Below are positions 1 through 39,049 of a stretch of 43,214 bases of DNA, one piece after another. The notes beneath the pieces are model-generated. The model made no database searches. It saw only the letters and a list, made by a program, of their open reading frames with translations, and was not told where the DNA came from. Position 1 is the stretch's first letter; each line of letters begins with the position of its first letter. The DNA lies in IMG/VR virus record IMGVR_UViG_3300046524_000291, positions 1-43,214 of that record, one strand, 5' to 3'. Source of the DNA: a virus. The position numbers and the translations under genes were made by a program.

Positions 1-127
1 CGTCGGTACGCCGTCCCAGGCGCCGAAGTGCTGGAGGACTTCCATGTAGGTGCGGGCGGCGGCGTGGTGGCACTCGTCCACGATGATCAGGCCGATATTG
101 CGGATGGCCTCGCGGCGCTTCGGTACG
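1..127. repeat. Terminal direct repeat, copy 1 (circular overlap)
   Basis: These 127 bases are identical to the last 127 bases of the window (43088-43214). Both copies carry the same helicase codons in the same frame, and joining them restores one uninterrupted gene. The simplest reading is a circular molecule whose assembly graph closed on itself with a k-mer-sized overlap. A true terminal redundancy of a linear genome is less likely, because it would fall inside a gene at exactly this length. Confidence 0.95.
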
Positions 128-447
128 GCCAGGGTCTGGACGCTGGCCACGATCACGTCGGCGTCGTGGTGGTCGTCGCGCTGGGCCTTGACGATGCCGA
201 CCCGCAGCATCGGGTCGACGGCGAGCAGCTTGGAAGCGGCCTGCTCGATCAGCTCCTCCCTGTGGGCAATGACGAGCACTCGACGGCCGTCGAGGTTGTC
301 GAGCATCTGGTGTGCCAGGTGGGAGAACACCACGGTCTTGCCCGAGCCGGTCGGGAGGACGACGGCGACTCGGTTCTTGCCGTCGGCCCATCCCTGGCGC
401 AGCGCCTCGATGGCGTCGAGCTGGTAGGGGCGGGGGGTGAAGGACAT
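1..447 (-). CDS. DEAD/DEAH-type superfamily II helicase, N-terminal part (gene crosses the circular join)
   Basis: This is the 5' part of an SF2 DNA/RNA helicase or translocase that would unwind or remodel DNA during replication or repair. The ATG at 447 follows a GAGG ribosome site. The protein begins MSFTPRPYQLDAIEAL, a typical Q-motif-like start. Walker A, PTGSGKT, lies at residues 32-38 and the Walker B box DECHH at about 124-128. Reading continues off base 1 and resumes at 43087, giving a 534-residue protein that ends at 41930. It sits directly downstream of the iteron-rich 448-773 region and the Prim-Pol gene, which suits a replication role. The family resembles the SSL2/RadD-like helicases of many actinophages; the exact substrate is unknown. 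Confidence 0.9.
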   Translation of the reverse strand, partial: MSFTPRPYQLDAIEALRQGWADGKNRVAVVLPTGSGKTVVFSHLAHQMLDNLDGRRVLVIAHREELIEQAASKLLAVDPMLRVGIVKAQRDDHHDADVIVASVQTLAVPKRREAIRNIGLIIVDECHHAAARTYMEVLQHFGAWDGVPT

Positions 448-490
448 GGGGCACCTCGATCCGGTGGAGAGGGGAGAGGAGCGGTACGCA

Positions 491-523
491 CTGCGTACCG
501 GCTGCGTACCGGCTGCGTACCGG
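491..523. repeat. Three tandem 11-bp repeats CTGCGTACCGG
   Basis: Perfect direct repeats at 491-501, 502-512 and 513-523. The period is 11 bp, so one face of the helix would be presented to a bound protein. The first unit also forms an inverted repeat with CGGTACGCA at 482-490. Confidence 0.95.
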
Positions 524-733
524 GCAAAAACAGGCTCTGAGCTGCTGTTATGTCTCTCTCTAGAGACAGTGGTACGCAGGTACGCAGAAACAGACAGGGG
601 TCGATGTGTGCGCCCACGCCCGCACGCACACGCGCACACGCTCACGCCTGAGGGGTGCCATTTCCGGGCGAGTGCGTACCACCCCGAAAAGCGCACCTGC
701 GGACGCTCTGACCTGCGGTGATGCGGGCGGGCG

Positions 734-760
734 GGTGGTACGCACCTCGTGCGTACCACC
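734..760. repeat. 12-bp inverted repeat containing the GGTACGCA motif
   Basis: GGTGGTACGCAC (734-745) and its exact complement (749-760) are separated by CTC. The repeat lies just past the Prim-Pol stop codon at 774. It could act as a transcription terminator for that gene, but the motif is shared with the iteron-like copies at 482-680, so a protein site is equally likely. Confidence 0.85.
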
Positions 761-773
761 GCCGTGGCGGCCC

Positions 774-3635
774 TCATGCCGCCACGTCCTCGTCGCCGAA
801 GCCGATGCCCTCAGGCGTGAACACGAGGCACTTCGCTCGGGCACCATCGAACCGGCGGGGCAGCAGGTGTGAGGGTCGCTGGCTCTTCAGCGTCTTCAGG
901 TACTCGGCATCGACCCAGCTGCCTACGACAGCGTCGAGCGAGTAGCCCGCATCCGCGAGGATCTTGTTGACCCGCTGCGGCAGGAGGGCTACCTCGGTGA
1001 CGCCGTCCTTGGTGGACAGGACGCCGAGCCAGCCGGAGAACGGAGGCCGTTGTTCGTTCATGACGGCGCGGCTGGTGGTGAAAAGTTCGTGCGCGTGGCC
1101 CGCTACGTACTCCCGAAGGACGTCCAAGGCCATGTCAGGCCGGTTGTCCGTGGGGTTGTGGGCGGTGAACAGCGAGCGCCACACATCGTGGCTCAGCGGC
1201 TCGTACGGCAGCAGCCCGGTTCGGCAGGCCAGCGTCTCGGCGAGGACCAACGCTGCGACCATGGGCGCGCGCCTGTTGGTCATGTCGCCGGCACCGCGGA
1301 ACTCGTCGACCAGCGTGCGGTGATGCTCCTTGAGCTTCTCCCTGCCGTTCGGCTGGGCGAGGCCGCTGAGGATGTACCGGATGAACTCCGGTCCTGCGTG
1401 GCCGTGATGGGCGAGGACGCCCTCGCGAGCAGCTGCCGCCGTCGGGCCGCCCCCGTCGCCGAACGGGGCGATGGTCGTACCGAGGATGCGGGCCGCCGCG
1501 CCCTGGCTGGTCGTGAAGGACAGCGCGGGACGCTCGCCGGACGACAGGAGGATGGTCTCCCAGGGCAGCATGTTGCCGAACGCGCCGCCGCTGCGCGCCT
1601 TCCCGTGGTTCATCGGGAGCTGGTACAGCACCTCGTCAATGAGGGTGTCGTCCGTGACGGCCATCGTCTCGTCGAAGACGGTGACGAGACCGCGCACCAG
1701 GTTCAGCCGCTTCTCGATCGCGTACAGCGTGGTGCGCCAGTTGGACATGGCGCTCGCGTGCTCGGACGGGTCGGCCCACACGCTGAGCGCGACCTGAAGC
1801 GCGGTCGTCTTGCCCTTGGTGCTGCGCGAGGAGATGTCCAGGGTGAAGGAGTTCAGCCCGAGGGGCTTGAGCAGCGGGGCGGCGAGTGCCGCCGCGACGG
1901 CGACGCGCGGCACCGGGAATCCAGCCAGCTGGGCGACGGTCGCCTGCCAGTCCTCCAGCGTCCCTTTCCTGGCGTGTGCTCGGGCCGGGCCGCGCTGCTC
2001 CTCGAAGGCGGTGTCGACCTTGATGCCGTCCTCGGGGGAGCTGACGAATGTGCCGTCGTCCTGCCACCCGAGCCAGCGCGCCAGCTGCTCGGACGGGATG
2101 CGGTGGACGTTCTCCGCCTCGAACTCGGCGAGCCACTTCTCGACGGCCCGGGCGTCGCCCTCGACCGCGGGGAGGCCCGCTGAACCGAGGGTCTCAATGA
2201 GCTTCCGCCCACGCTTGGCGGTCTCGCGGCTGACGATGCGGGAGATGCGGCGCGGCCGGCCGAGGCTGCGGTCGATCCAGGACAGCTCTACGTACTGGTC
2301 ACCCTCGGGGTCCTCGAAGGTGGCCGTCACCACCAGCGGGGCGAAGGTGACCCGCGTCCAGCTCTCGCCGCTCTGGCTGAGCACCTCGACGCCCCTGCCG
2401 GTGACCCGGTAGTCGTACGGCGTGCGGACAGTGGGCGGCAGGCCGAAGGTATCGGCGTACCCGAAGCCTTCGGAGTTCCGCGCGGTGTCGTCCTGGGGCG
2501 CCTGATCCTCGTCGGCCCTGGCGTGCTCGTCCTCGTCGGGCGCTGCGGCCGGGGCCGGGGCTGCGGGTGCGGGGGAGGGTGCGCCGACCGAGGCCAGGTG
2601 ACGACTGCCGAAGCCCTGGCGGGCCAACTCGCGGGCGGCGGCCTTGTGGTCGCCGTTGTGGTTGAGCAGGGCGTACGCGCCGAACTTCGAGTAGGGCACC
2701 TCGGGGGTGAAGTCGCTGCCGGTCGCGAAGACGAACAGCCGGTCGTGCTCGTCTTTGCCGGTGGTGGCCTTGACCCCGCCGACGCCGTCCGCCCACCCCC
2801 AGTAGGTCTCACTGCCCCGGGTGGTCAGCGGCCGGAAGACGCCACGCAGGATGTCTGTCCAGTCCGCGCGGGCCTCGAAGTCGTCGCCGGGGCGCAGGGT
2901 CCCGTCTGGCCGCGGTGCGGCAGGCCGGGGCGCTGTCTTGGCGGGCTCGGGCCGGGGCAGGCTGTCGAGCATCCGGCAGACGTCCCGGATCGCCGTCATG
3001 GTCTCGGCGTCCAGAACGGGGATGCTCTCGGGGCCTCCAGCGAGGCGGACGTACGGACGTCCGGAAGCGTGGACCGTGCCGCCGGACGGCTCGACGAGCC
3101 CGTATCCGCCCTCGCCGCGGGTCTCGATGAGGACGCGGACGATGCGCGTGCCGGGCTTCTCCCGGAGACGCTGGCGTTCCTCGTCGGTGTACTCGTCCTC
3201 GCGTGCGAGGCGGCTGGCGAGCTTGGTGTTCCCGGGGACGTCGGCGCCCTCAACGTGGACGCGGTAGTGCCGGCCGCCGGACGGGGACTCGGTGGCCCAC
3301 CCTCCGAGGACGGCGGCCCAGGGCTCGCTGAGACCGGACGCCTGCATGATCTCGGTGACGGCGTCCAGCATGCCTTCGCGGACGGCCAGGCCCTCGAACT
3401 CCAGCATCTCGACGTTGCCGGACACGGCGCCGTAGACGACGGCGATGCCGCGCGGGCGGTCGCCGCCGAACCACTGGTCGTGGTCGTCGGGGGCCGAGCG
3501 GTTGAGCTTGTACGGGGTCCAGCTGCGGACGTCGGGCGCCTTGCTGCCGTCGGCCTTGATGGGCAGGACGCACAGACCGGCGTCGTGCAACTCGCGGGCT
3601 GCCGCCCGGAGATCTGGAGTCTGTGAGTCGGTCAA
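774..3635 (-). CDS. Prim-Pol / DUF927 replication protein (953 aa)
   Basis: Putative replication initiator that primes and helps open the element's DNA. Residues 1-200 match the bifunctional primase/polymerase fold: an acidic strand MLEFEG near 77-82 and the SPSGGRHYRV motif near 117-126. An Ala/Pro/Glu linker follows at about 352-385. Residues 400-830 resemble a DUF927 helicase-like domain with a P-loop SRSTKGKTT at about 603-611 and a Walker B FDE near 654-656. The start is a TTG at 3635 with GGGGGAG five bases upstream, overlapping the previous gene's TGA (TTGA); an upstream-extended frame is Arg/Pro-rich noise. Prim-Pol replication proteins are typical of Streptomyces AICEs. It ends beside the iteron-like region. 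Confidence 0.88.
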   Translation of the reverse strand: MTDSQTPDLRAAARELHDAGLCVLPIKADGSKAPDVRSWTPYKLNRSAPDDHDQWFGGDRPRGIAVVYGAVSGNVEMLEFEGLAVREGMLDAVTEIMQASGLSEPWAAVLGGWATESPSGGRHYRVHVEGADVPGNTKLASRLAREDEYTDEERQRLREKPGTRIVRVLIETRGEGGYGLVEPSGGTVHASGRPYVRLAGGPESIPVLDAETMTAIRDVCRMLDSLPRPEPAKTAPRPAAPRPDGTLRPGDDFEARADWTDILRGVFRPLTTRGSETYWGWADGVGGVKATTGKDEHDRLFVFATGSDFTPEVPYSKFGAYALLNHNGDHKAAARELARQGFGSRHLASVGAPSPAPAAPAPAAAPDEDEHARADEDQAPQDDTARNSEGFGYADTFGLPPTVRTPYDYRVTGRGVEVLSQSGESWTRVTFAPLVVTATFEDPEGDQYVELSWIDRSLGRPRRISRIVSRETAKRGRKLIETLGSAGLPAVEGDARAVEKWLAEFEAENVHRIPSEQLARWLGWQDDGTFVSSPEDGIKVDTAFEEQRGPARAHARKGTLEDWQATVAQLAGFPVPRVAVAAALAAPLLKPLGLNSFTLDISSRSTKGKTTALQVALSVWADPSEHASAMSNWRTTLYAIEKRLNLVRGLVTVFDETMAVTDDTLIDEVLYQLPMNHGKARSGGAFGNMLPWETILLSSGERPALSFTTSQGAAARILGTTIAPFGDGGGPTAAAAREGVLAHHGHAGPEFIRYILSGLAQPNGREKLKEHHRTLVDEFRGAGDMTNRRAPMVAALVLAETLACRTGLLPYEPLSHDVWRSLFTAHNPTDNRPDMALDVLREYVAGHAHELFTTSRAVMNEQRPPFSGWLGVLSTKDGVTEVALLPQRVNKILADAGYSLDAVVGSWVDAEYLKTLKSQRPSHLLPRRFDGARAKCLVFTPEGIGFGDEDVAA

Positions 3636-17010: not shown

Positions 17011-20000
17011 TCAGCCGACGAACGTCATGTGCCGGGCGACGTCCATCGCCTGCTCTGCGGTGGTCTGCTTGGCGCCGTAGAGGTTCACCGTGATCTGCTT
17101 GCTGACCTCCCTCGCGACGGCCGCCGCAGACGTGGTGCCGCCCCCGTACCGTCCGGCAGGGGTGAGCTGATAGCCCATGGAGGCCGCGGTCTTGGCGAGC
17201 AGCGCCCGGGAGCGGGCGGAACCGTTCCACGGGATCCACGACTCACGCACGCCGGCCTCGGCGCCGAGCACCATCGTGGGCCGCGAGAGGATGCCGCCTG
17301 CGGCCATGGCCTTACCGCCCTGCTGCACCCACTGCCGGACGAACGTCGCCTTGTTCGCCTCCGGCAGGCCGCCAATCTGCTTGGTCATTTTCGGGACCAG
17401 GGCGCGGATGGTGGCCACGTCCAGGCCTGCCGCGATGAGGTCGGCGAAGCCCTTGCCCGTTCCGCTGCGCAGGGTCGACAGCAGGATCAGGCTGTCGGCG
17501 AGGTCGTCACCGGTCAGCGTGGACTGAGCCGTGCCCACCGACTTGTTGGCCGCGGATGCGGCCTTGCTATCGCCGGCGGCCTGGTGGGCGAGCGTCATGG
17601 CGTTGGCGTCGCCCTGCGCGGCCAGGGCCTGGGCCAGGTCACCGAACCCGTTCGCCGCCAACTTCTGAAGGTCTGCGGCGAACTGCTGGGACTCCTTGGT
17701 CGAGCTGTTGAGCTGGCTGGTGAAGTCCTTGAGTGTGGCCTTGGCCAGCTCGCCCGTCTTCTCTAGCTTGGCCGTGATCGACTTGAACTGTTTGTCGCTC
17801 GCCCCGGCCAGGGCGTTGACGAGGGCGTACCCGTCCTCGCCCATCCCCTCCAGCAGGCTCTGGAGCTCCTTGCCGCCCCGGGTGCCGATCTTGTTCAGGT
17901 TGGAGCGCCACTTCTGTGTCGCGGCGACGCTCTTGTTGAGCTGCGCCTCATACGCCTTGAGGTCGAAGCCAGTGGGTGCCTTGGCGCCCTTCTTCACCCC
18001 AAGGGCCGCGTCTGCCGCGTACACCTTCTGGCGGTCCGCGCTGACCGTCTTGTCGGTGGTCTTCTTCGCGGCCTTGGCCTTGTCGACCTTCTCCTCTGCG
18101 GCCCTCAACTGGGCCGCCGTGTGGTGCCCCTTCCGCACGCGGCTGAGGTTCTTCTCGGCGGTCGAGAGGTTGTCGGCGGCCTTTTTCTGGGCCTTCAGCG
18201 CGGTGTTGAGGGTGTCCCAGGCCTTCTTGAGGGCCTCGACCTGCTTGTCGTACCGCTCCTTCGCGTCGGACGGGCCGCCGAGCACGGCCTGAGCTGCTGG
18301 CGAGTACGTGAAGCCTGGAATGCCGCCGCCGGCGAACCATGCGACCTGCCCGCCGAGCCGCTTCACGGTCTCGGCGGCGATCTGCCGCGAGCGGGGCCGC
18401 TTCGAGCGGGCGAGCGGGATGTAGGCCTCGCCGCCCGTCTCGTCCTCGGCCCACACCCGCCACATGCCGGCCTTCGCGATCTGCGCGACGTGGTTCTCGG
18501 TGCCGCCGTCGGCGTAGTACACCGCCCCGTTGGCGTTGTAGCCGCGGGACAGGACGCTGTCGCGGCCGGCGGCGGCCTTGATGTGCTCCTGGACGTAGAC
18601 GTCCACGGATTTGCCGTGCAGGCCGTTGACCCAGGCCTGGATGGCGCTAACCGCACCCTTGGGAGTGCCGGTGGGGATGGTGATCTGCACCTTCCCGTTC
18701 TTCATGTGGGTGACCTTGAAGCCCAGCCCGGTCAGGGCGTCCTCGGCGGTCTTGGTCAGGGCGTTGACCGTGACCGATTTTCCCTTCATGTTCTTGATCT
18801 TGTCTTCGACGGTCTTCAGATCGGCGAGTGCTGCCGAGGTCTTCGCGTCGACCTTCGTCGTCGCTGTCGGGGGCACCTTCAGGTAGGACGCGATGAGTGT
18901 GTCGATCGCGTCCTTCGAGAAACCGGCCTGATGCATCTGCTCCTTGAGCAGCTCGATGTCCGTCTTCAGCGCGGCCTGCCCCTTGGCCTGGGAGCCGGTC
19001 TGCTTGGCGATCGCGTCGGCGTGGTCGAGAGCGGCCTGTGCGGCGTCGAGGAACGCGCCCTTGACCTTCCGGCCGGCCTCCGAGGAGACGTTGAGGCTGT
19101 GCCCGTTCTCCTTCACGGCGTCGGTCAGGTCGTGCACTGACTGCCGGAACGAGATCTCCTTCTCCGCAGCGGAGATGTTGACCCCGTTGAGGGCGTCCAG
19201 GGCGTCGGAGAGCTTCTCTGCCTCGGTGCGCTGGTCCTGGAGGGCGTCGTTCGTCAGACCCAGCTCCTGGGACAGCTTCGCCTGCGAGTCCGCGGACAAC
19301 TTCGACTGCGTGTCCGTCTCCGTCAGGGCATCGGCGTACCCCGGCAGGAGCGTCCGTAGTTTTTCCGTCGATGTGCCCTGAGCTTCGGCCTCCTTGGCTA
19401 GCCGCTGGAATGCGGCTGCTGCCGTGTCCGGGGCTCCTCCCTGGACCAGGTTCGTGAGGGCCTGGTCCACGGACTTCAGTTTGTCGCGGGCTTCGTCCAG
19501 GCCCTGGGAGTCGGAGCCGAGGTGGGTGATCGTGTAGAGGGAGTCACCGACCCGGTCGAGGGCGCCCGGGTGGGCGAGCCGGGCGACGGCGTCACCGAAA
19601 CCGTCCAGGTCCTTGCCGAAGGACTTCGTCAGCTCACCCGACGCCTTGCCGGTCTTTCCGAAGGCCAGCAGGGCATTGCCCAGTTGCGTGACGTTCGGCG
19701 GGGCGTCCTCGAACGCCTCCTTCAGCTTGTCGGCCCCGAACGACATGGCCTCCAGAGTCGCCAGGACAACCCCGGCCCGCGCGAGCCCGGCCAGCAGCAC
19801 GCGGGTACGGGCCGCGGTGAGACCGAGGGACTGAAGCGCGGTACGGGTGGCCGCGATCCGGGGCAGCAGCAGGAGAAACCCGGCGACTGCGAGGGCGCTC
19901 GCGCCGCCGATGCCGCTCATCAGGGTGACCGTGTGCTGGAGACTCGGGGGCAGGTCGTTGTAGGCGTTGATGAGCTTGGTGACCCACTGGACCATGTCCC

Positions 20001-21039
20001 GCATCGCGCCGTTGGCGCTGCTTCCGCCCTCGATGAGCGCGACCTCCAGGGCGCCCTTGAGCCGCTGGAAGTCGCCGACCAGGTTGTCGGTCTGGATCGA
20101 CGCCATGCGGGAGGCGGCGCCCTGGTCGTTGACGGACTTGACGTACTTGTCGATGCCCTTCGAGCCCAGCTCGTACAGGATCGTCGCCGACCGGACGGCG
20201 TCGCTGCCGAAGATCGTTGCGAAGGCGCTGTTGCGGGCCTCGGGGGTCAGCTTGCTGAACGACGTCTTCAGGTTCCCGGCCAGCTTGCTCAGGCCGACGA
20301 ACTTGCCCTGCGAGTCGTAGGCGGTGAAGCCGAGGCGGTCCATCATGGTGCGGGCCTCGTCGGACTGCGGGGTGAGCCTCTGCAGCATGACCTTGAGCGA
20401 GGTGCCCGCGTCGGAGCCGATCAGGGCGTGGTCGGCGAAGGCGGCGAGGGTGCCGACCGTCTCTTCCAAGCTCAGGCCGGTCTGGTTGGCGAGCAGCCCG
20501 CCCATCCGCAGGGACATTCCCAGCCCGTGCATGTCCGCGGCGCTCTTGTTCGCCGCAGCGGACAGGACGTCGGCGATGTGGGAGACGTCTTTGCCCTTCA
20601 GCCCGAAGGTGTTCATGGTCTGGGCTGCGATGACGGCGCTGTCGGCGAGGTCCATCTGACCCGACGCCGCCAGCGCCAGCGACCCCTTGAGGGCGCCCCC
20701 GGTGATGTCGGCGACGGAGATGCCGGCGCGTGCCAGCTCCGCCTCGGCGTCCGCTGCCTGCGTGGCCGTGAAGGAGGTGGTACGGCCCGCGTCCAGGGCG
20801 GCCGCCCGCAGCTTGGCCATCTGCGCCGTGCTGGCGCCCGTCACGGCCCTCACGTTCGACAGGCCCTTGTCGAATTTGGCGGCGGCGGCAACCGCCAACG
20901 CGAAACCGGTGACCAAGACGGCGCCGACCTTCGCTCCGACTCCGGCGAGCTGGGAGGTGCGGTCGGAGGCGTCCCGCAGCGAGCGGGTGTACTGGTTGAC
21001 GTCGGCGCGGAGCCGGACGGTGACGGTACGGACGGCCAT
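17011..21039 (-). CDS. Tail tape measure protein, TP901-type (1342 aa)
   Basis: Sets tail length and is released with DNA at infection. Residues about 40-330 contain the TP901 core (LSNVRAVTGASTAQMAKLRAAALDAGRTTSFTATQAADAEAELARAGIS; later MNTFGLKGKDVSHIADVLSAAANKSAADMHGLG). Hydrophobic stretches near residue 390 (VAGFLLLLPRI) could insert in the host membrane. Long Ala/Lys helices and coiled-coil sequence fill the rest. The ATG at 21039 has GGAGG four bases upstream; a start 12 bases earlier lacks one. At about 0.15 nm per residue the tail would be near 200 nm (inference). Confidence 0.95.
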   Translation of the reverse strand: MAVRTVTVRLRADVNQYTRSLRDASDRTSQLAGVGAKVGAVLVTGFALAVAAAAKFDKGLSNVRAVTGASTAQMAKLRAAALDAGRTTSFTATQAADAEAELARAGISVADITGGALKGSLALAASGQMDLADSAVIAAQTMNTFGLKGKDVSHIADVLSAAANKSAADMHGLGMSLRMGGLLANQTGLSLEETVGTLAAFADHALIGSDAGTSLKVMLQRLTPQSDEARTMMDRLGFTAYDSQGKFVGLSKLAGNLKTSFSKLTPEARNSAFATIFGSDAVRSATILYELGSKGIDKYVKSVNDQGAASRMASIQTDNLVGDFQRLKGALEVALIEGGSSANGAMRDMVQWVTKLINAYNDLPPSLQHTVTLMSGIGGASALAVAGFLLLLPRIAATRTALQSLGLTAARTRVLLAGLARAGVVLATLEAMSFGADKLKEAFEDAPPNVTQLGNALLAFGKTGKASGELTKSFGKDLDGFGDAVARLAHPGALDRVGDSLYTITHLGSDSQGLDEARDKLKSVDQALTNLVQGGAPDTAAAAFQRLAKEAEAQGTSTEKLRTLLPGYADALTETDTQSKLSADSQAKLSQELGLTNDALQDQRTEAEKLSDALDALNGVNISAAEKEISFRQSVHDLTDAVKENGHSLNVSSEAGRKVKGAFLDAAQAALDHADAIAKQTGSQAKGQAALKTDIELLKEQMHQAGFSKDAIDTLIASYLKVPPTATTKVDAKTSAALADLKTVEDKIKNMKGKSVTVNALTKTAEDALTGLGFKVTHMKNGKVQITIPTGTPKGAVSAIQAWVNGLHGKSVDVYVQEHIKAAAGRDSVLSRGYNANGAVYYADGGTENHVAQIAKAGMWRVWAEDETGGEAYIPLARSKRPRSRQIAAETVKRLGGQVAWFAGGGIPGFTYSPAAQAVLGGPSDAKERYDKQVEALKKAWDTLNTALKAQKKAADNLSTAEKNLSRVRKGHHTAAQLRAAEEKVDKAKAAKKTTDKTVSADRQKVYAADAALGVKKGAKAPTGFDLKAYEAQLNKSVAATQKWRSNLNKIGTRGGKELQSLLEGMGEDGYALVNALAGASDKQFKSITAKLEKTGELAKATLKDFTSQLNSSTKESQQFAADLQKLAANGFGDLAQALAAQGDANAMTLAHQAAGDSKAASAANKSVGTAQSTLTGDDLADSLILLSTLRSGTGKGFADLIAAGLDVATIRALVPKMTKQIGGLPEANKATFVRQWVQQGGKAMAAGGILSRPTMVLGAEAGVRESWIPWNGSARSRALLAKTAASMGYQLTPAGRYGGGTTSAAAVAREVSKQITVNLYGAKQTTAEQAMDVARHMTFVG

Positions 21040-21075
21040 GTCACCTCCCAAGGGGGTGCAGGGCCGGTGCGGCCG

Positions 21076-24393: not shown

Positions 24394-25587
24394 TTACAGG
24401 CTGGCGACCAGGCCGGTCACCAGGCCGTGCTTGCGCTCGTTGCCGTACTTCAGGCCGACCTCGCCGTAGAGCTGCGTGCGCTCCTTGGCGCCGGTCTTGG
24501 CGAGCGGCTCGGCGAAGAAGTGGCCCTTGCCGGGGGTCTCCAGGTAGACCGGCATGCACTCTTCGAGCGACGCGACCATGATCTTGTGCCGGGGCATGTG
24601 CCGGTCGAGCATGATGTTCAGCACGCCGAAGTCGGTCTGGATCGTCTGGAGGTTGACCCCTCCGACGCTGCGGCTGGTCTCCTGGTACTTGCCGTAGGCG
24701 TTGGCGTAGGCGTCGGTGACGCCCCGCTTCGAGGTCGAGCCGACGACCAGCGTCGCGGTCTCCGACTCCATGATCCCGCCGTTGTCGAAGACGGTCTGGA
24801 GGATGCCGTCGATGACCGCCTTGGTGACGGCGGCCAGCTTGGTGACGTTGGCGGTGCCGTCGGCGCCTGCCAGGTCGATCGCCGCGCCGCCCTTGGTCGC
24901 CGCCAGCTTGAAGGTGTTGGTGGTCGGGGTGACGACGTAGTACGGGGTGTCCGCGCTGACGCCGGTCAGGTTGACGATGGTGTCCAGGGTGACCTGGTCG
25001 TTGAGGATGAGGCCGTGGGCGCTCAGGGTGAATGCGTCCGTGCTGATGGCACCCGCCGCCGAGCCGAGCGCGGCGCCGGCGCTCGCGACGTTGGTGGCGA
25101 TGGCCTGGAGCATGCCCCGGGTGCGGCGGGCCGTCGTGTTGTCGGTCGGCTTCTGGTAGATGCCGTTGATGAACGAGTACTCCACGTCCCGGTTCATCTG
25201 CTTCAGCATCTGCTCGACCTGCCAGTCCAGTTCGTTGCGGACCGGGTTGGTGGCCTCGATGTTCAGGCCGGAGTGCGCGCCGACCGCAGCGAGCTTGGAG
25301 TAGGAGACGCCGACAGTCTCGTGGTGGATCTGGCAGATGTTGTCGACCGACCCGCGCACCCGCTCCTGGTCGTTGGGCGCGTCCTGGCCCTCAAGGGCGG
25401 TGTTCTGGCCCGCGCCGCGAAGGTCGAAGGTCTGCCATTCGAACTCTTTCGCGGTGCTCTGGCCGCCGCCGGTCAGGCCGCCGATCGCGGAGAAGAACGG
25501 GGTGTCGTCCGGCGTCAGCTGATGCAGGATGCCGGTGTAGTTGGGCAGGTTGTACGTCGTGCCCAGGGCGGTGATGCTCCCAGCCAT
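24394..25587 (-). CDS. Major capsid protein, SU10/DUF5309-like (397 aa)
   Basis: The N-terminus SITALGTTYNLPNYTGILHQLTPDDTPFFSAIGGLTGG, then FEWQTFDLRGAGQNTALEGQDAP and RNELDWQVEQMLKQMNRDVEYSFINGIYQ, match the SU10-type (DUF5309) HK97-fold capsid family. A central insertion (about residues 165-250) is Ala/Thr/Val-rich and may form a surface beta domain. A C-terminal GKGHFFAEPLAKTGAKERTQLYGEVGLKYGNERKHGLVTGL closes the fold. The ATG at 25587 follows GGAGG. It is preceded by the scaffold gene. Confidence 0.92.
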   Translation of the reverse strand: MAGSITALGTTYNLPNYTGILHQLTPDDTPFFSAIGGLTGGGQSTAKEFEWQTFDLRGAGQNTALEGQDAPNDQERVRGSVDNICQIHHETVGVSYSKLAAVGAHSGLNIEATNPVRNELDWQVEQMLKQMNRDVEYSFINGIYQKPTDNTTARRTRGMLQAIATNVASAGAALGSAAGAISTDAFTLSAHGLILNDQVTLDTIVNLTGVSADTPYYVVTPTTNTFKLAATKGGAAIDLAGADGTANVTKLAAVTKAVIDGILQTVFDNGGIMESETATLVVGSTSKRGVTDAYANAYGKYQETSRSVGGVNLQTIQTDFGVLNIMLDRHMPRHKIMVASLEECMPVYLETPGKGHFFAEPLAKTGAKERTQLYGEVGLKYGNERKHGLVTGLVASL

Positions 25588-27423: not shown

Positions 27424-28857
27424 TTACCCCACGGGCACCGGGTCAGCCGGCGCGATCGTCGGGTCAGCCGGCGCGGGCGGCTCGACCGGAGGCTTCGGCC
27501 CGTACCCGGCGGCGAAGTCGCCGCCCATGGCCCGGTCCAGGGCGCGCTCGTCCATCTCCCGCATCCGGGCCAGTTGTACGGCGGTGTAGCCGAGGTCCTC
27601 GCGGCCCTGCTCGACCGGGATGATGTCGGCCTGCACCAGCTTCACCGTGGCGTCCGCCTTCTGTGCGAACGTCGGCGTGGCCGGGTCCCGCCACAGCGTT
27701 TCCAGGCGCAGCAGGCGAGGGTCCCAGTCGCCTTCGATGATCCGCATGACCAGACGGTTCATCCGTTCGTGACCGGCCTCGAAGGGCTTCTGTGTGCGCT
27801 CGCACCGCTTGACCAGCCGGGTCTCGCGCGAGCGGATCGCGTCGGCCGAGGCGGCATCGTCTGCGCTGAGGCCCAGATAGTTCGGCGGCAGGGCGGCGAG
27901 CGCGGCGACCATCCGGGCGAGGAACTCGATCGTCCCGGTGAAGTTGGCCAGGTCGGCGGCCGGGAACTGGACGACGTCGGCGCCGTCTTCCTTGCGGGTC
28001 TTCGACGTCGACCAGATGCGGCCCGCCAGCCGCGACCACACCGACAGTTGCTTGCCGTTGACGTCGACGAAGTCTTCCTCGTCGAAGCCGAAAGCGGCCC
28101 GACGGGGGAGGGCGTGGAACTCAGCGCCCACCATCAGGTCGGTGGCCATCTTGCAGGCCGCGTCCGAGACCGGCAGAACTGCCTTCAGCCCTGACTGGCC
28201 ACCAGGGACCAAGAGTCGAGCGCGGTTGGCCAGCACCGCGACGAGCGGTTCACCAACCCCGTGGTCGTCGCGGTCGATGACCGTCCAGGTGCCGGGTCCG
28301 CCGGACTTGAAATGCACCGTGGCGTTGGGCCGGTACAGGGTGGCGTACCGGTCGCGTACGGCCGAGGTGAGGGGGTCGATCTCGTTGTACCGCTTCAGGG
28401 CGGCTCGGATCTCGCGGGTCGCCGGGTCGAAGTCGGCGTACATCTGGAGCGGTGACTCTGCCGTCACCAGCGGGGTGGTGGGATCCTTCGGGTTCGACCC
28501 GACGACGAGGAAGGACCGTTTCATGACGAGCGCGTCGGTGTGGGCCTGCTGGCTCTTCTCGTCCATGCCGTTGGCCTGCCAGATCCGCCACAGCTCGTCA
28601 CTGGCAGAGTCCGTGTCCGGGTACCGGAAGCCCTCGACGTCGAGCCGCTCTTCGATCGCGTCAATGACCAACTGCGGCCAGTTGATGACGACTTGGCGGA
28701 TCTGCTCGCCGATCTCCTTCAGCAGTTCCGGGTGCATGTAGGAGAGCGGCTGTGTGCCCTCGTAGTACGCGTTGTACTCCTGGAGTTCCTGCAGCTCGAA
28801 GTCGTGGCTGCGTGAGAGGTAGGTTGCCCAGTCCTCTTCGCTCAGGTTCAGGTCCAC
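27424..28857 (-). CDS. Portal protein, SPP1 gp6-like (477 aa)
   Basis: Forms the dodecameric DNA channel at the capsid vertex. ELQEYNAYYEGTQPLSYMHPE near residues 22-42 is the classic N-terminal portal motif. It is followed by INWPQLVIDAIEERLDVEGFRY, a beta-rich wing, and an ALAALPPNYLGLSADDAASADAIRSRETRLVKRCERTQKPFEAGHERMNRLV stem-helix region. The C-terminus is Pro/Ala-rich. The GTG at 28857 has GAGGAG six bases upstream. Confidence 0.92.
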   Translation of the reverse strand: MDLNLSEEDWATYLSRSHDFELQELQEYNAYYEGTQPLSYMHPELLKEIGEQIRQVVINWPQLVIDAIEERLDVEGFRYPDTDSASDELWRIWQANGMDEKSQQAHTDALVMKRSFLVVGSNPKDPTTPLVTAESPLQMYADFDPATREIRAALKRYNEIDPLTSAVRDRYATLYRPNATVHFKSGGPGTWTVIDRDDHGVGEPLVAVLANRARLLVPGGQSGLKAVLPVSDAACKMATDLMVGAEFHALPRRAAFGFDEEDFVDVNGKQLSVWSRLAGRIWSTSKTRKEDGADVVQFPAADLANFTGTIEFLARMVAALAALPPNYLGLSADDAASADAIRSRETRLVKRCERTQKPFEAGHERMNRLVMRIIEGDWDPRLLRLETLWRDPATPTFAQKADATVKLVQADIIPVEQGREDLGYTAVQLARMREMDERALDRAMGGDFAAGYGPKPPVEPPAPADPTIAPADPVPVG

Positions 28858-28869
28858 CGGTCGCTCCTC

Positions 28870-30519
28870 TCACATCACGACCATGGAGGCCTTCTTCTTC
28901 GGCTTGTTCTGGCCCGCGGCGATGGCGTCCAGGTACGCCTCCCAGGACAGGCACCCGGCCATCGCGCCGTCCATGGACAGCGGGCTCTGGTGACGCTCTT
29001 TCTCGATGACCCACAGCGGCTGGCCCTGCTCGTCCAGCATCTTGAGGATCTTCCGGCGGGCGTTGCCTACGTGCCGGGCAAGCACTGCATCGCCGGAGTG
29101 GGTAAGGGCGCCGGACTGCATGGCGCCCTTGTATGCCTTCAGCGAGTACGCCATGGCCTTCAGCCGGTTCGTCCACCACTCGGTGACCCGCTTGTCACCC
29201 CAGCGGCCTTTCCAGAGGCTGATCATTCCCTCCCAGTACGGAGGGTCTGCGTACAGGCGGACGACGTCCCACGTGGCGAACGCGTTCACCAGGACGGCGT
29301 CGACCTCGTCCTCGGGGCACTTCCAGCCCGGGCCGCCGGGGTCGTTGGCTCCGGGCGGGCACTCCCAGATGCCCAGCGGCCACTGGAAGCCGGTCGCGAG
29401 GTGTGTTGCGACCAGCGCGGTGGCGTCCCGGAACTGGGCGCCATCGAAGCCGATTGTGATCCGGTCGCCCTTGGGCGGCAACGGCAGGTCAGGCCGGGCC
29501 AGTTCCGTCCACCGCTCGACCGAGAACGCCTGACGGCCCGCCTGCACCCGCCGGTTGAGCCACACGCGCTCCCAGTACGCCCGGTCGGTGTCCGGGGCGT
29601 TGTACAGGGCGACGATCGCGTCGACCTGGCCCTCGAAGTCGGGCCAGGCCGCGATGGACGGGCCGGACGCTTCTCGGACCGCTGCACGGATCTGCGGCTC
29701 GTCCGAGAGGTCCTCGTCCACGCGGGGGGCTGCCTCGCGGTGGAAGAAGAACAGCGTCCGGTCCTTCGATTTGCCCGCCACGATCAGCTCGGCGAACTCG
29801 TGCGTGCCCTGCGCCACACTGTCCTCGCCGGGTGTGTACGTGGTCGTGGTCTCCAGCGACCACGGATCGAACAGCATGATCTTCGGGATGTTCGCCAGCA
29901 TCGTCTGGTGCGCTTCCTTGTGCCGCGGCAGCGTGAAGCGGTGGGTCTCGTCGAAGTGCTGGAACGTCGTGCGCGCGCCGTCCCTGCTGTCCGGGGAGGA
30001 CGCGAGCGGCACGGCCTTGCCGGAGCCGCCCCACCGCATGATGCGGTCTAGGCCGGGATCGAACAGGTCGCCGTCCGGCCCTTCCACGATCATCACGTAC
30101 AGGGCGGCGTAGGCCAGTTCCTCCGTCTGCTCCTCGGTGTACGCCACCATCGGGATGTACGGGTCGGAGACCGGCACGCCCACGGGATCGCCGTTCGCGT
30201 CGAACCCGTCGCAGCGCACCGGGCCATCCGGGTGCAGCTCGGCGAACGCCACCGCGGCGGCGAGCTCCGTCTTGGCCGTGCCCTTGCGGACGCTCAGGCC
30301 GACCCGTTTGAAGCGCCGCTTCCCCGCTCGGGGATGGCCCTGCGGGTACACCTCGTACCAGCGGTAGATGAGCGCGCGTTTCTCCGGATCGAGGACGTAG
30401 GGGCGTCCGCGCAGGGCGCCCGGTCCGTGCACGGCCCGTTCCTCGACCAGGTCGCACACCTGCGGTCCCAGCGTCGGCCACGGCTCCGTGTCCGGGGCTG
30501 GGACCATCAGGACGCCCAC
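28870..30519 (-). CDS. terL: Terminase large subunit (549 aa)
   Basis: The packaging motor and genome-cutting nuclease. The ATPase has a Walker A-like SVRKGTAKTE (about residues 76-85) and Walker B FQHFDETH (Asp190, Glu191). The RNase H-like nuclease has acidic residues in IGFDGAQFRDATA (Asp359), LYADPPYW (Asp425) and SMDGAMAG (Asp517). The GTG at 30519 has GGAG six bases upstream, and the stop of the small subunit lies in the ribosome site. The full length for the family argues that packaging is functional. Confidence 0.95.
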   Translation of the reverse strand: MGVLMVPAPDTEPWPTLGPQVCDLVEERAVHGPGALRGRPYVLDPEKRALIYRWYEVYPQGHPRAGKRRFKRVGLSVRKGTAKTELAAAVAFAELHPDGPVRCDGFDANGDPVGVPVSDPYIPMVAYTEEQTEELAYAALYVMIVEGPDGDLFDPGLDRIMRWGGSGKAVPLASSPDSRDGARTTFQHFDETHRFTLPRHKEAHQTMLANIPKIMLFDPWSLETTTTYTPGEDSVAQGTHEFAELIVAGKSKDRTLFFFHREAAPRVDEDLSDEPQIRAAVREASGPSIAAWPDFEGQVDAIVALYNAPDTDRAYWERVWLNRRVQAGRQAFSVERWTELARPDLPLPPKGDRITIGFDGAQFRDATALVATHLATGFQWPLGIWECPPGANDPGGPGWKCPEDEVDAVLVNAFATWDVVRLYADPPYWEGMISLWKGRWGDKRVTEWWTNRLKAMAYSLKAYKGAMQSGALTHSGDAVLARHVGNARRKILKMLDEQGQPLWVIEKERHQSPLSMDGAMAGCLSWEAYLDAIAAGQNKPKKKASMVVM

Positions 30520-33587: not shown

Positions 33588-33688
33588 GCTAGGCGCTAGG
33601 TGGCAGGTCAGGGGCGCTTTTTGGTGCTAGCGGAGGTGCTAGACCTAGCAGGGTGGCCTGCTAGGTCTAGTGGGGCCTGTGGGGCTAG
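33588..33688. repeat. CTAG-rich repeat region, candidate clt (transfer locus)
   Basis: Eight CTAG tetranucleotides lie within about 100 bases. Six are in direct GCTAG copies (33588, 33595, 33626, 33638, 33660, 33684), two of them inside identical GGTGCTAG octamers. CTAG is rare in GC-rich actinomycete DNA. The region ends in the stop codon of the FtsK/TraB-like gene. In Streptomyces plasmids the TraB translocase binds short octamer repeats in a nearby clt locus, which makes this a clt candidate. Confidence 0.5.
33639..33670. repeat. 14-bp inverted repeat within the CTAG-rich region
   Basis: CTAGACCTAGCAGG (33639-33652) and its exact complement (33657-33670) around GTGG. It could be the terminator of the FtsK-like gene or the core of a protein-binding site. 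Confidence 0.85.
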
Positions 33689-35748
33689 GCGGCGGCCCTG
33701 TCGGCGTCGCGGCGGGTGATCGCGGTGGCTACGTCGGCGCGTTTGATGCCGCGTCGGTTCTTGCCTTCGCCGTCGTCGGTGGTGCCCCACACCTGGTCTG
33801 CTTTGATCCCCCAGGGCTTGACCGCGGCCGTGATGTTTTCGGCCTTCCAGCCGCCGTAGACGTCGGGCCGCAGCTCGGCGAGGCGGGCGGCGATCCGCTC
33901 GTTCCACACCTGTTCCTCGTCGGCGCCGACGACCTTGAGGATGTCGCCGAGGACGTCCATGCCGGCCGACTCGGCGGGGCCTTCGCCGAGGGCGTGGCCG
34001 GTGATGTTGCCGTAGGCCTCGCGCAGCTGGCGGGCGCGGGCGACGACGAGTTCGGCGGCCGGGCCGTCGACGAACGCGGACGCTGCGATGACGGGGTCGT
34101 CGCCCTCGCCGGACATCCAGCAGATGCCGCGGTCGGAGCGGCTGAACATGGTGGCGCGGATGCCGGCCTTGTAGGCGCCGGTGCCGAGCACCATGTCGTT
34201 GGCGGTGTGGCTCATGACCTTGAGGCAGAACCGCAGGATGGCGTTGGCGCTGATGCCCGGGGGCAGGGACTTCGCGTCGGGGCGTTGGGTGGCGAAGATG
34301 CCGATGATGCCGAGGGCGGGGCCGCGCTTGGCGATGTCGGTGCAGATGGACTCCAGCTCGGCGCCGTACTTCTCGTGTTCGAAGGGGACTTGGCACTCGT
34401 CGAAGCCGATGACGATGGGGTGCAGTCCGAGGCTCTTGTCGCTGGCCAGGGCCGGGGTGACCTTCGATTCGGGGCAGCGGGTCTTGGGCAGGGAGCGGAT
34501 CACCTTGGCGCGGCGGCGCAGCTCTTCCTTGACCTCCCGCATGGCGTGCAGGACGTAGAGGAGGTCGTCGTCTTCCTCGCCGGAGCGGTAGCGGTGGCTG
34601 ACGGGTTCGAGGGGTCCGAGGTCGCCGGTGCCCTTGAAGTCGAAGCCGAGGATCCAGGCGCGTGGGTCGAGGGAGGCGATAAGGAGGAGGAGGCGGAGCA
34701 GGAACGTCTTGCCCATGCGGGGCACGGAGCCGATGACGACGGACACGAACATGAGGCAGACGACGATGTCGCGCATGCGCTGGTCGTTGCCGAAGACGAC
34801 GGGCTTGAACAGGTCGACCTCGCCCTCCTTGAGGAGGGGCCAGGGGGGTTTGGTGGTCTCGTTCATGGGCTTGTCGCCGACCCAGAGGATGAGGCGGCCT
34901 TCGTGTTCGGTGGGGTCGCCGGAGGGCCAGACGCAGCCGAGTTTGCGGCGCAGGCCGGAGGCGAGGGCCTGGCGTTCTTCCATGACGTCTTCGGGGACGA
35001 CGCCGTAGGGGAGGTCGAGGTCGGCGCGGTAGCCGGGGCCGTCGCGGGTGATCTCCGAGGTGAAGCGCATGCCGTTCATGTCGCCGCCCTTCTTCACGGC
35101 CGCGCTGATCTTGGCGTTGCCGATGGAGTCGAGGGCGCGGAGCACGATGGAGCCGGTGAGCTTCTGGAGTTCGGTGCGCATGACGGCGGGACCGATGACG
35201 GGTGCGTCGGGCTGCTGGCCGAAGTAGCCGAGGGTGAGGACTCCGCCAGCGGCGAAGACGTACAGGTAGGCGGGGGCCATGACGTACAGCCAGAGGGCGA
35301 AGCCGAGGCCGAACACGCAGGCGACGACGGTGACGAAGCCGCGCAGGCGGACACGTCCGGCGCGCAGGCGGGCCAGGGTCATGTACTCGGTGACGTCCTC
35401 CTGGCGGACGGCGAAGTCCCGCAGGGGTGCGGCCTCCCGGTCCCAGATCCATCGGTTCGTGGACGCGACCAGGCGGGCGGTGCCGCGGGGGGCCATCATG
35501 CCGAGCTGGACGGCGTACCCGGGGGTGCGCAGGCCGTGGTAGGCGGTTGCGTACCAGGCGTGACCTGCCGCGCGTTCGAGGGTGGCGGCGAGGTCGCGGC
35601 GGGAGCGCAGCCACGGGGCGATGATCGGGCGCCGCTTCTCGGTGGTGACTCCGGGGTCGGGCAACTTCGGGTTGTCGACCGGGATGGGCGCAGGCAGGGC
35701 CGTCCCATCGGTGGGTTCCGCTTGGGCGGGGGCCATCGTGTCCGTCAT
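33685..35748 (-). CDS. FtsK/SpoIIIE-type DNA translocase, TraB-like (687 aa)
   Basis: A membrane-bound motor of the class that alone moves double-stranded DNA in Streptomyces conjugation. Two membrane helices span about residues 137-176. The RecA-like motor has Walker A GSVPRMGKT (340-348), FDFKGTGDL (369-377) and Walker B VIGFDECQ (446-452). The C-terminal 80 residues (VYGGWKAENITAAVKPWGIKADQVWG ... KRADVATAI) look like a winged-helix DNA-reading domain. The ATG at 35748 has GGAGAG six bases upstream. Upstream genes are Spd-like, and the CTAG cluster follows. An alternative role is moving phage DNA within the cell. Confidence 0.88.
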   Translation of the reverse strand: MTDTMAPAQAEPTDGTALPAPIPVDNPKLPDPGVTTEKRRPIIAPWLRSRRDLAATLERAAGHAWYATAYHGLRTPGYAVQLGMMAPRGTARLVASTNRWIWDREAAPLRDFAVRQEDVTEYMTLARLRAGRVRLRGFVTVVACVFGLGFALWLYVMAPAYLYVFAAGGVLTLGYFGQQPDAPVIGPAVMRTELQKLTGSIVLRALDSIGNAKISAAVKKGGDMNGMRFTSEITRDGPGYRADLDLPYGVVPEDVMEERQALASGLRRKLGCVWPSGDPTEHEGRLILWVGDKPMNETTKPPWPLLKEGEVDLFKPVVFGNDQRMRDIVVCLMFVSVVIGSVPRMGKTFLLRLLLLIASLDPRAWILGFDFKGTGDLGPLEPVSHRYRSGEEDDDLLYVLHAMREVKEELRRRAKVIRSLPKTRCPESKVTPALASDKSLGLHPIVIGFDECQVPFEHEKYGAELESICTDIAKRGPALGIIGIFATQRPDAKSLPPGISANAILRFCLKVMSHTANDMVLGTGAYKAGIRATMFSRSDRGICWMSGEGDDPVIAASAFVDGPAAELVVARARQLREAYGNITGHALGEGPAESAGMDVLGDILKVVGADEEQVWNERIAARLAELRPDVYGGWKAENITAAVKPWGIKADQVWGTTDDGEGKNRRGIKRADVATAITRRDADRAAA

Positions 35749-38770: not shown

Positions 38771-39025
38771 CTATTCGGTTGTGGTCGGGGAGCTGGGCGG
38801 GGGTAGGGTCCCGGTCCCGTGCTCGCGGATGGCTCTTCGGACTGCGCTCGGGCTGATGCCGCGGTCCGCTGCGACTGCCGTCTTGGTTCCCAGCTCTCGT
38901 ACGCCGTCTTCGAGCGCTGCGGCTCGCCGTTGGGCACTCGCTGAGATCAAGCCGAGTAGTCGCTTCTGTCGCTGGTCCTCGGCATCAACTCTTTCGCGCC
39001 AATTGGTTGTTGGCACGCAGGTCAC
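38771..39025 (-). CDS. Small helix-turn-helix regulator of the transfer module (84 aa)
   Basis: The C-terminal half, LGTKTAVAADRGISPSAVRRAIREHGTG, is a helix-turn-helix of the homeodomain-like type; the first half is a basic helix. A perfect 20-bp palindrome lies four bases upstream of the GTG at 39025, the expected operator for self-control. No ribosome site is visible, so the message may be leaderless; a GTG at 39016 is the alternative start. By position it resembles the Kor-type regulators of Streptomyces transfer genes (inference). Confidence 0.68.
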   Translation of the reverse strand: MTCVPTTNWRERVDAEDQRQKRLLGLISASAQRRAAALEDGVRELGTKTAVAADRGISPSAVRRAIREHGTGTLPPPSSPTTTE

Positions 39026-39029
39026 ACTA

Positions 39030-39049
39030 CTAGAACCCTAGGGTTCTAG
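39030..39049. promoter_or_regulatory. Perfect 20-bp palindrome ahead of the transfer module
   Basis: CTAGAACCCTAGGGTTCTAG, with three CTAG sequences in 20 bases. It overlaps the stop codon (TAG) of the upstream gene and abuts the HTH gene's start. Operator role inferred. Confidence 0.85.

Follow-up and report, generated by a model that had tools for sequence, protein, structure and literature searches.

The C-terminal domain of SaPI Rep recognises an iteron origin directly 3' of rep (PMC7581432), and PICI origins always contain two sets of iterons around an AT-rich region, an organisation that, according to the authors, is common to no other known replicon (PMC6092414). In the SCCmec Cch2 operon, the short direct repeats bound by a self-loading helicase likewise lie 3' of the helicase gene, and binding is through the C-terminal domain (PMC7581432). 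Replication of plasmid pWTY27 in S. lividans is bidirectional and needs repA, repB, which encodes a Prim-Pol, and a 300-bp sequence 3' of repA; RepA footprints cover 405-447 and 462-509, and a 149-bp core is insufficient for replication (PMC3583192). For pRN1, the proposed origin 3' of the Prim-Pol gene consists of a 21-nt stem and a 58-nt loop, the stem arms being unconserved but complementary (PMC4234260).

Here, we propose that a 327-bp gap (447-773) in a window of 43,214 nucleotides, the whole of IMG/VR record IMGVR_UViG_3300046524_000291, is very probably the origin from which a temperate Streptomyces phage replicates. Four lines of evidence lead to this reading and strongly support the original prediction of a candidate origin: conserved synteny, natural swaps of iteron and initiator modules, an initiator homologous to SaPI Rep, and a plasmid locus with the same scaffold, that of pWTY27, that has been tested for replication. 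The gap represents a new variant of the SaPI/PICI-type rep-ori, and the element itself is no PICI.

The contig ends have a 127-bp direct repeat in common, consistent with a circular assembly of 43,087 bp, and a closed circle is its most likely form. By its genes the element is a temperate tailed phage: it has an integrase, HTH regulators and late-gene-like ORFs, together with plasmid-like FtsK-type (assigned by inspection) and membrane proteins. The late-gene-like ORFs, labelled by inspection of ORF size, order and sequence appearance with no profile search behind the labels, comprise terminase-like (28870-30519), portal-like (27424-28857), capsid-like (24394-25587) and tape-measure-like (17011-21051) ORFs. 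Because these virion-type ORFs are present, the element is not a PICI; it is a complete temperate Streptomyces phage rather than a satellite. The gap and its flanking genes contain the following features.

1-447, minus strand: 5' part of the SF2 (ResIII/DEAD) helicase gene, which continues at the other contig end
483-523: outer cluster B, three 11-bp direct iterons (492-499, 503-510 and 514-521, minus strand) and one inverted iteron (483-490, plus strand)
525-574, strandless: low-GC patch, 46% GC versus ~70% for the contig, among the lowest 0.09% of 50-mers
535-545, minus strand: box 2, GCAGCTCAGAG, found by the box pattern
571-586, plus strand: inner tandem iteron pair of 8-bp period, right half-origin, found by motif count and tandem check (571-587 in the latter)
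621-641, strandless: alternating purine-pyrimidine spacer of 21 nt, the longest such run of the contig (the next is 14)
673-680, minus strand: inner iteron, left half-origin, found by motif count
706-716, minus strand: box 1, GCAGGTCAGAG, found by the box pattern
734-760: outer cluster A, an inverted iteron pair (737-744, plus strand; 750-757, minus strand) forming a 12-bp dyad, kept in 17 close relatives
774-3635, minus strand: initiator gene encoding Prim-Pol, DUF927/AAA+ helicase and C-terminal winged helix (stop codon 774-776, probable TTG start at 3635)
810-1997, minus strand: SaPI-Rep-like AAA+ and winged-helix half of the initiator, the predicted iteron reader, from profile and Foldseek matches

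The array lies between the initiator stop codon (gene end at 774) and the SF2 helicase start at 447, and its position between two replication genes is as originally described. GGTACGCA or its complement occurs nine times within 483-757, starting at 483, 492, 503, 514, 571, 579, 673, 737 and 750. These nine copies in 278 bases, the three perfect 11-bp tandem units at 491-523, the 8-bp tandem pair predicted at 571-586, the 9-bp dyad at 482-500, the 12-bp dyad at 734-760 and the less GC-rich patch in the gene-free stretch had all been noted in the original prediction and were all recovered, with the copy number far above chance. The prediction would have lost its basis if the motif were common elsewhere in the element; the contig holds one further copy, at 35548 in coding sequence. 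In the whole window, 10 copies were counted against an expectation of 0.86, and none of 100 shuffles reached 10. Within 400 bp past the stop codon of the initiator gene, 9 copies of the best 7-mer stand against a shuffle mean of 2.7 (maximum 5 in 300 shuffles), and the corresponding count in 209 other windows of the contig is at most 7. The parts are arranged symmetrically. From the spacer of alternating purines and pyrimidines outwards, each half has inner iterons (one or more on one side, a pair on the other), then a GCWGGTCA box, then an outer cluster. The two boxes, of the form GCAG(G/C)TCAGAG, and the alternating run are additional to the features noted before. The gap thus holds two iteron sets around a central spacer that is GC-rich, and the low-GC patch lies inside the right half, just outside the right inner pair. 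GC skew of the contig gave no signal at the array and was uninformative as an origin marker, and an Rfam scan returned no match. A 13-bp inverted repeat formed by 808-820, at the coding end of the initiator gene, and 642-654 was rejected as a codon coincidence, since it shows no covariation in relatives.

The initiator, whose probable TTG start was placed by comparison with L036, a relative that starts with GTG, contains a Prim-Pol domain at residues 147-488 (PHROG primase match) and DUF927 at residues 569-825. HTH_56, the winged helix of Cch, matches weakly at 979-1077 (20.1 bits versus a cut-off of 26.2) and exceeds the cut-off in the relative L044. A profile of the C-terminal half matches SaPIbov1 Rep (PDB 8tch, E=2e-27), in an alignment that extends into the C-terminal domain of 8tch, and SCCmec Cch (PDB 5dgk, 5e-18). 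Likewise, an AlphaFold2 model with a mean pLDDT of 73.6 gave Foldseek matches to 8tch (E=1e-22) and 5dgk (~1e-22) over an alignment of 565 columns. Prim-Pol had originally been suspected as the iteron binder. This suspicion was not sustained, because relatives with the same Prim-Pol and another helicase half carry other iterons. The likely iteron reader is instead the C-terminal DUF927-AAA+-winged-helix half.

The array is conserved beyond this contig. An IMG/VR protein search and an exact 19-mer search returned the identical set of 17 viral contigs, and array location and part order are alike in 17/17. Closely related loci also occur in Streptomyces genomes (L039-L042 and L047), among them L040 in the lysogen Streptomyces sp. 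WAC 01529. Among 393 Streptomyces genomes, two contain the tandem pattern, one in a prophage and one, a 19-mer-like match that we discarded, inside an unrelated hydrolase-like gene. The array could alternatively be a repressor-bound promoter/operator of the downstream helicase gene, an explanation to which the position of the array immediately upstream of the helicase start and its dyads lend some support. However, no promoter of the sigma-70 type, the only type considered, was found in the gap. Moreover, L015 retains GGTACGCA but lacks the helicase and has another gene after the array, which is therefore not tied to the helicase. Arrays without the phage's SF2 helicase downstream are likewise present in L045, L046, L048, L069, pFP4 and L038, while L036, L071 and L072 retain the helicase at 72-73% identity yet have another iteron. 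The array does not, then, act as an operator for the helicase gene only, and we consider the operator explanation very unlikely; because initiators often repress neighbouring promoters, a secondary role of this type is possible.

Distant relatives connect the iteron to the initiator. DUF927 relatives of 40-64% identity are found in Streptomyces, Frankia, Parafrankia, Micromonospora and the plasmid-phage pFP4, and each has an array after the initiator stop codon with an iteron different from GGTACGCA. Over all the more distant relatives, the iterons are GTAACGCA, GTTACGCA, GGTTACG, GCTACGCA, GGGGTACG, GGGTAACT, GGGGAACA and GCAGGGAC. The best 7-mer exceeds all 300 shuffles in 16 of 21 loci, the other five having degenerate iterons or fewer copies. 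In L036, L071 and L072, Prim-Pol (70-72% identity) and the downstream helicase are kept, the DUF927 half is exchanged for an unrelated helicase, and the iteron is GCAGGGAC. Across ten DUF927 types, iteron similarity correlates with DUF927 and winged-helix similarity (Mantel r 0.54 and 0.57, p<0.001), a test in which the winged helix is not separable from the remaining domain. As far as these sequence comparisons go, the relatives keep the layout and switch the repeat together with the initiator, a behaviour also seen in staphylococcal pathogenicity islands and in one experimentally tested Streptomyces plasmid, and the iteron tracks the DUF927/winged-helix half and neither the Prim-Pol half nor the downstream helicase. 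The primase module is also exchanged: L044 and L067 have a DUF927 initiator fused to a DnaG/TOPRIM-type primase on the same origin scaffold, which reads as a replacement of Prim-Pol. Arthrobacter phages with the same Prim-Pol have no gap behind the Prim-Pol gene.

A Streptomyces plasmid carries the same scaffold in a locus whose role in replication has been demonstrated. The required 300 bp of pWTY27 (NC_013667.2) share with the phage the boxes (381-388 and 519-526), the inner tandem pairs (405-420 and 487-502) and the outer clusters, and they hold ten GTGGGAA iterons; a Prim-Pol is encoded beside the initiator. That the 149-bp core is not sufficient indicates that the outer clusters matter. 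pWTY27 differs in its iteron, GTGGGAAC, in having Prim-Pol as a separate gene and in its RepA, which belongs to the helicase family of L036 (42% identity between RepA and the L036 helicase half). RepA has no detectable homology to the DUF927 half, and the connection between the two runs via the module swaps; accordingly, pWTY27 was absent from a plasmid search with the window protein and was found with query P0003. In plasmids with pWTY27-type initiators, L101 (pCM32) and L100 (Saccharopolyspora, S. cyaneofuscatus), the corresponding position is occupied by arrays of AAACCCGG and CTACCCGCA.

The pRN1 family of Sulfolobus also combines Prim-Pol, helicase and winged helix with an origin 3' of the gene, but its helicase is of the SF3 type and a stem-loop is proposed in place of iterons (PMC4234260). 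By this precedent of a stem and loop 3' of a Prim-Pol gene (PMC4234260), the phage origin could act via an extruded stem-loop, with the inverted iterons as stem arms rather than protein sites, and as single-stranded DNA the gap indeed folds with z = -5.8. Identical inverted sites fold anyway, however. Most iterons are direct and their periods unequal (8-bp pair versus 11-bp triple), which breaks the stem register; complementarity ends at the iteron edges; and the dyad proximal to the stop codon is missing in L044, L045, L046 and L048. We therefore regard the stem-loop as highly improbable and the iterons as candidate protein sites.

In the Streptomyces plasmid-phage pFP4 (NC_017833.1), reportedly the subject of Chen et al. 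2012 (Plasmid 68:170), a DUF927 initiator 43-46% identical to that of the phage has an array directly 3' with the same layout and boxes. pFP4 differs in its iteron, GGGTAACT, in its separate Prim-Pol gene and in the presence of ParA. Partition proteins bind such arrays, and with ParA encoded in pFP4 the array might be a partition centromere. Yet in pFP4 it lies beside DUF927 and not parA, and it is always next to the initiator; the window has an integrase and no ParA-like protein among its scanned proteins, and the corresponding region of pWTY27 is needed for replication (PMC3583192). We give this explanation next to no weight and retain the reading as an origin.

The strict box pattern occurs in 14 of 15 actinomycete regions, mostly twice, versus 0.01-0.4 expected, and the fifteenth, L036, has the variant CAGGCCAG. 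In most clades and with any iteron, box 2 lies 32-34 bp from the inner pair on one side and 19-22 bp from the outer cluster on the other, while exact mirror symmetry of the inner-outer spacing holds in only about half of the origins. The spacer of the Streptomyces DUF927 group contains an alternating purine-pyrimidine run of 16-52 nt. A role of the box as a Prim-Pol priming site was ruled out, as L044 and L067 with their DnaG/TOPRIM-type primase domains also have it. Helicases of two families and primases of two families accompany the box; what these systems would most simply have in common is a host factor, which the boxes probably bind. A longer form of the box was absent from 61 Streptomyces genomes.

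In the phage, GCAGGTCA-type boxes are found in intergenic regions at 545, 716, 5143, 7788, 32857, 33603 and 39017, and within the intergenic stretch 39017-39049 such a box stands beside a perfect 20-bp palindrome, CTAGAACCCTAGGGTTCTAG. Of the contig's 15 GCTAG and 21 CTAG, 8 each lie in a second array, at 33588-33688 directly 3' of the stop codon of an FtsK/TraB-like gene; the array also has a 14-bp dyad and a GCAGGTCA box. Relatives of this gene on other contigs (L081-L093) show the same arrangement with 7-8 CTAG in 13/13. This array is a candidate clt-like loading site of the translocase.

Like the SaPI/PICI rep-ori, the phage locus encodes a DUF927 AAA+ helicase that ends in a winged helix, homologous to SaPIbov1 Rep (8tch) and Cch (5dgk). 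Immediately past the helicase gene lie iteron clusters, whose role as an origin is inferred in the phage, and they form two sets around what may be a melting region. The region downstream in SaPI PT1028 consists of an outer cluster, an inner pair, an AT-rich spacer, an inner iteron and outer iterons, and the same outer-inner-spacer-inner-outer plan is found in Thermoanaerobacterium phage THSA-485A, Faecalibacterium phage Epona and a Geobacillus plasmid, where SaPI-like iteron origins lie behind the DUF927 genes (L094 4072-4438, L095 4713-5041 and L096 4632-6044, respectively). By contrast, the phage is a complete temperate phage, its initiator is fused to Prim-Pol, its spacer is GC-rich alternating purine-pyrimidine DNA, and it has two GCWGGTCA boxes, whereas the strict box pattern was found in 0/4 of the SaPI and other Firmicutes regions examined. 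Where the left half of the phage origin has the inner iteron at 673-680, pFP4, pWTY27 and SaPI have an inner tandem pair. The SCCmec Cch2 operon is further removed, with a helicase of the D5/Primase_Cterm family, three iterons only and a novel primase-polymerase pair (PMC7581432).

We suggest that the C-terminal winged helix of the Prim-Pol-DUF927 protein binds GGTACGCA and that initiator hexamers would form on both of the opposed half-origins. Melting would follow, between the inner iterons or beside them; the DUF927 AAA+ ring would load itself and unwind, and the fused Prim-Pol would prime synthesis for elongation by the host polymerase. More tentatively, and somewhat short of an even chance, one scaffold may serve two or more initiator families that share no detectable homology, iterons being swapped with the initiator; in actinomycetes, GCWGGTCA would be the host-factor box of the half-origins, and the role of AT-rich DNA as unwinding element would fall to an alternating purine-pyrimidine spacer.

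With the gap, phage replicons of the Prim-Pol/DUF927 type have a defined, testable predicted origin. The swaps found in nature provide a specificity code of about ten winged-helix variants, each with its own iteron, which would be useful for understanding DNA recognition by self-loading MCM-like initiators and for compatible Streptomyces vectors. Altogether, the origin plan of PICIs extends beyond satellites, and its actinomycete version exposes a conserved box with a putative binder.
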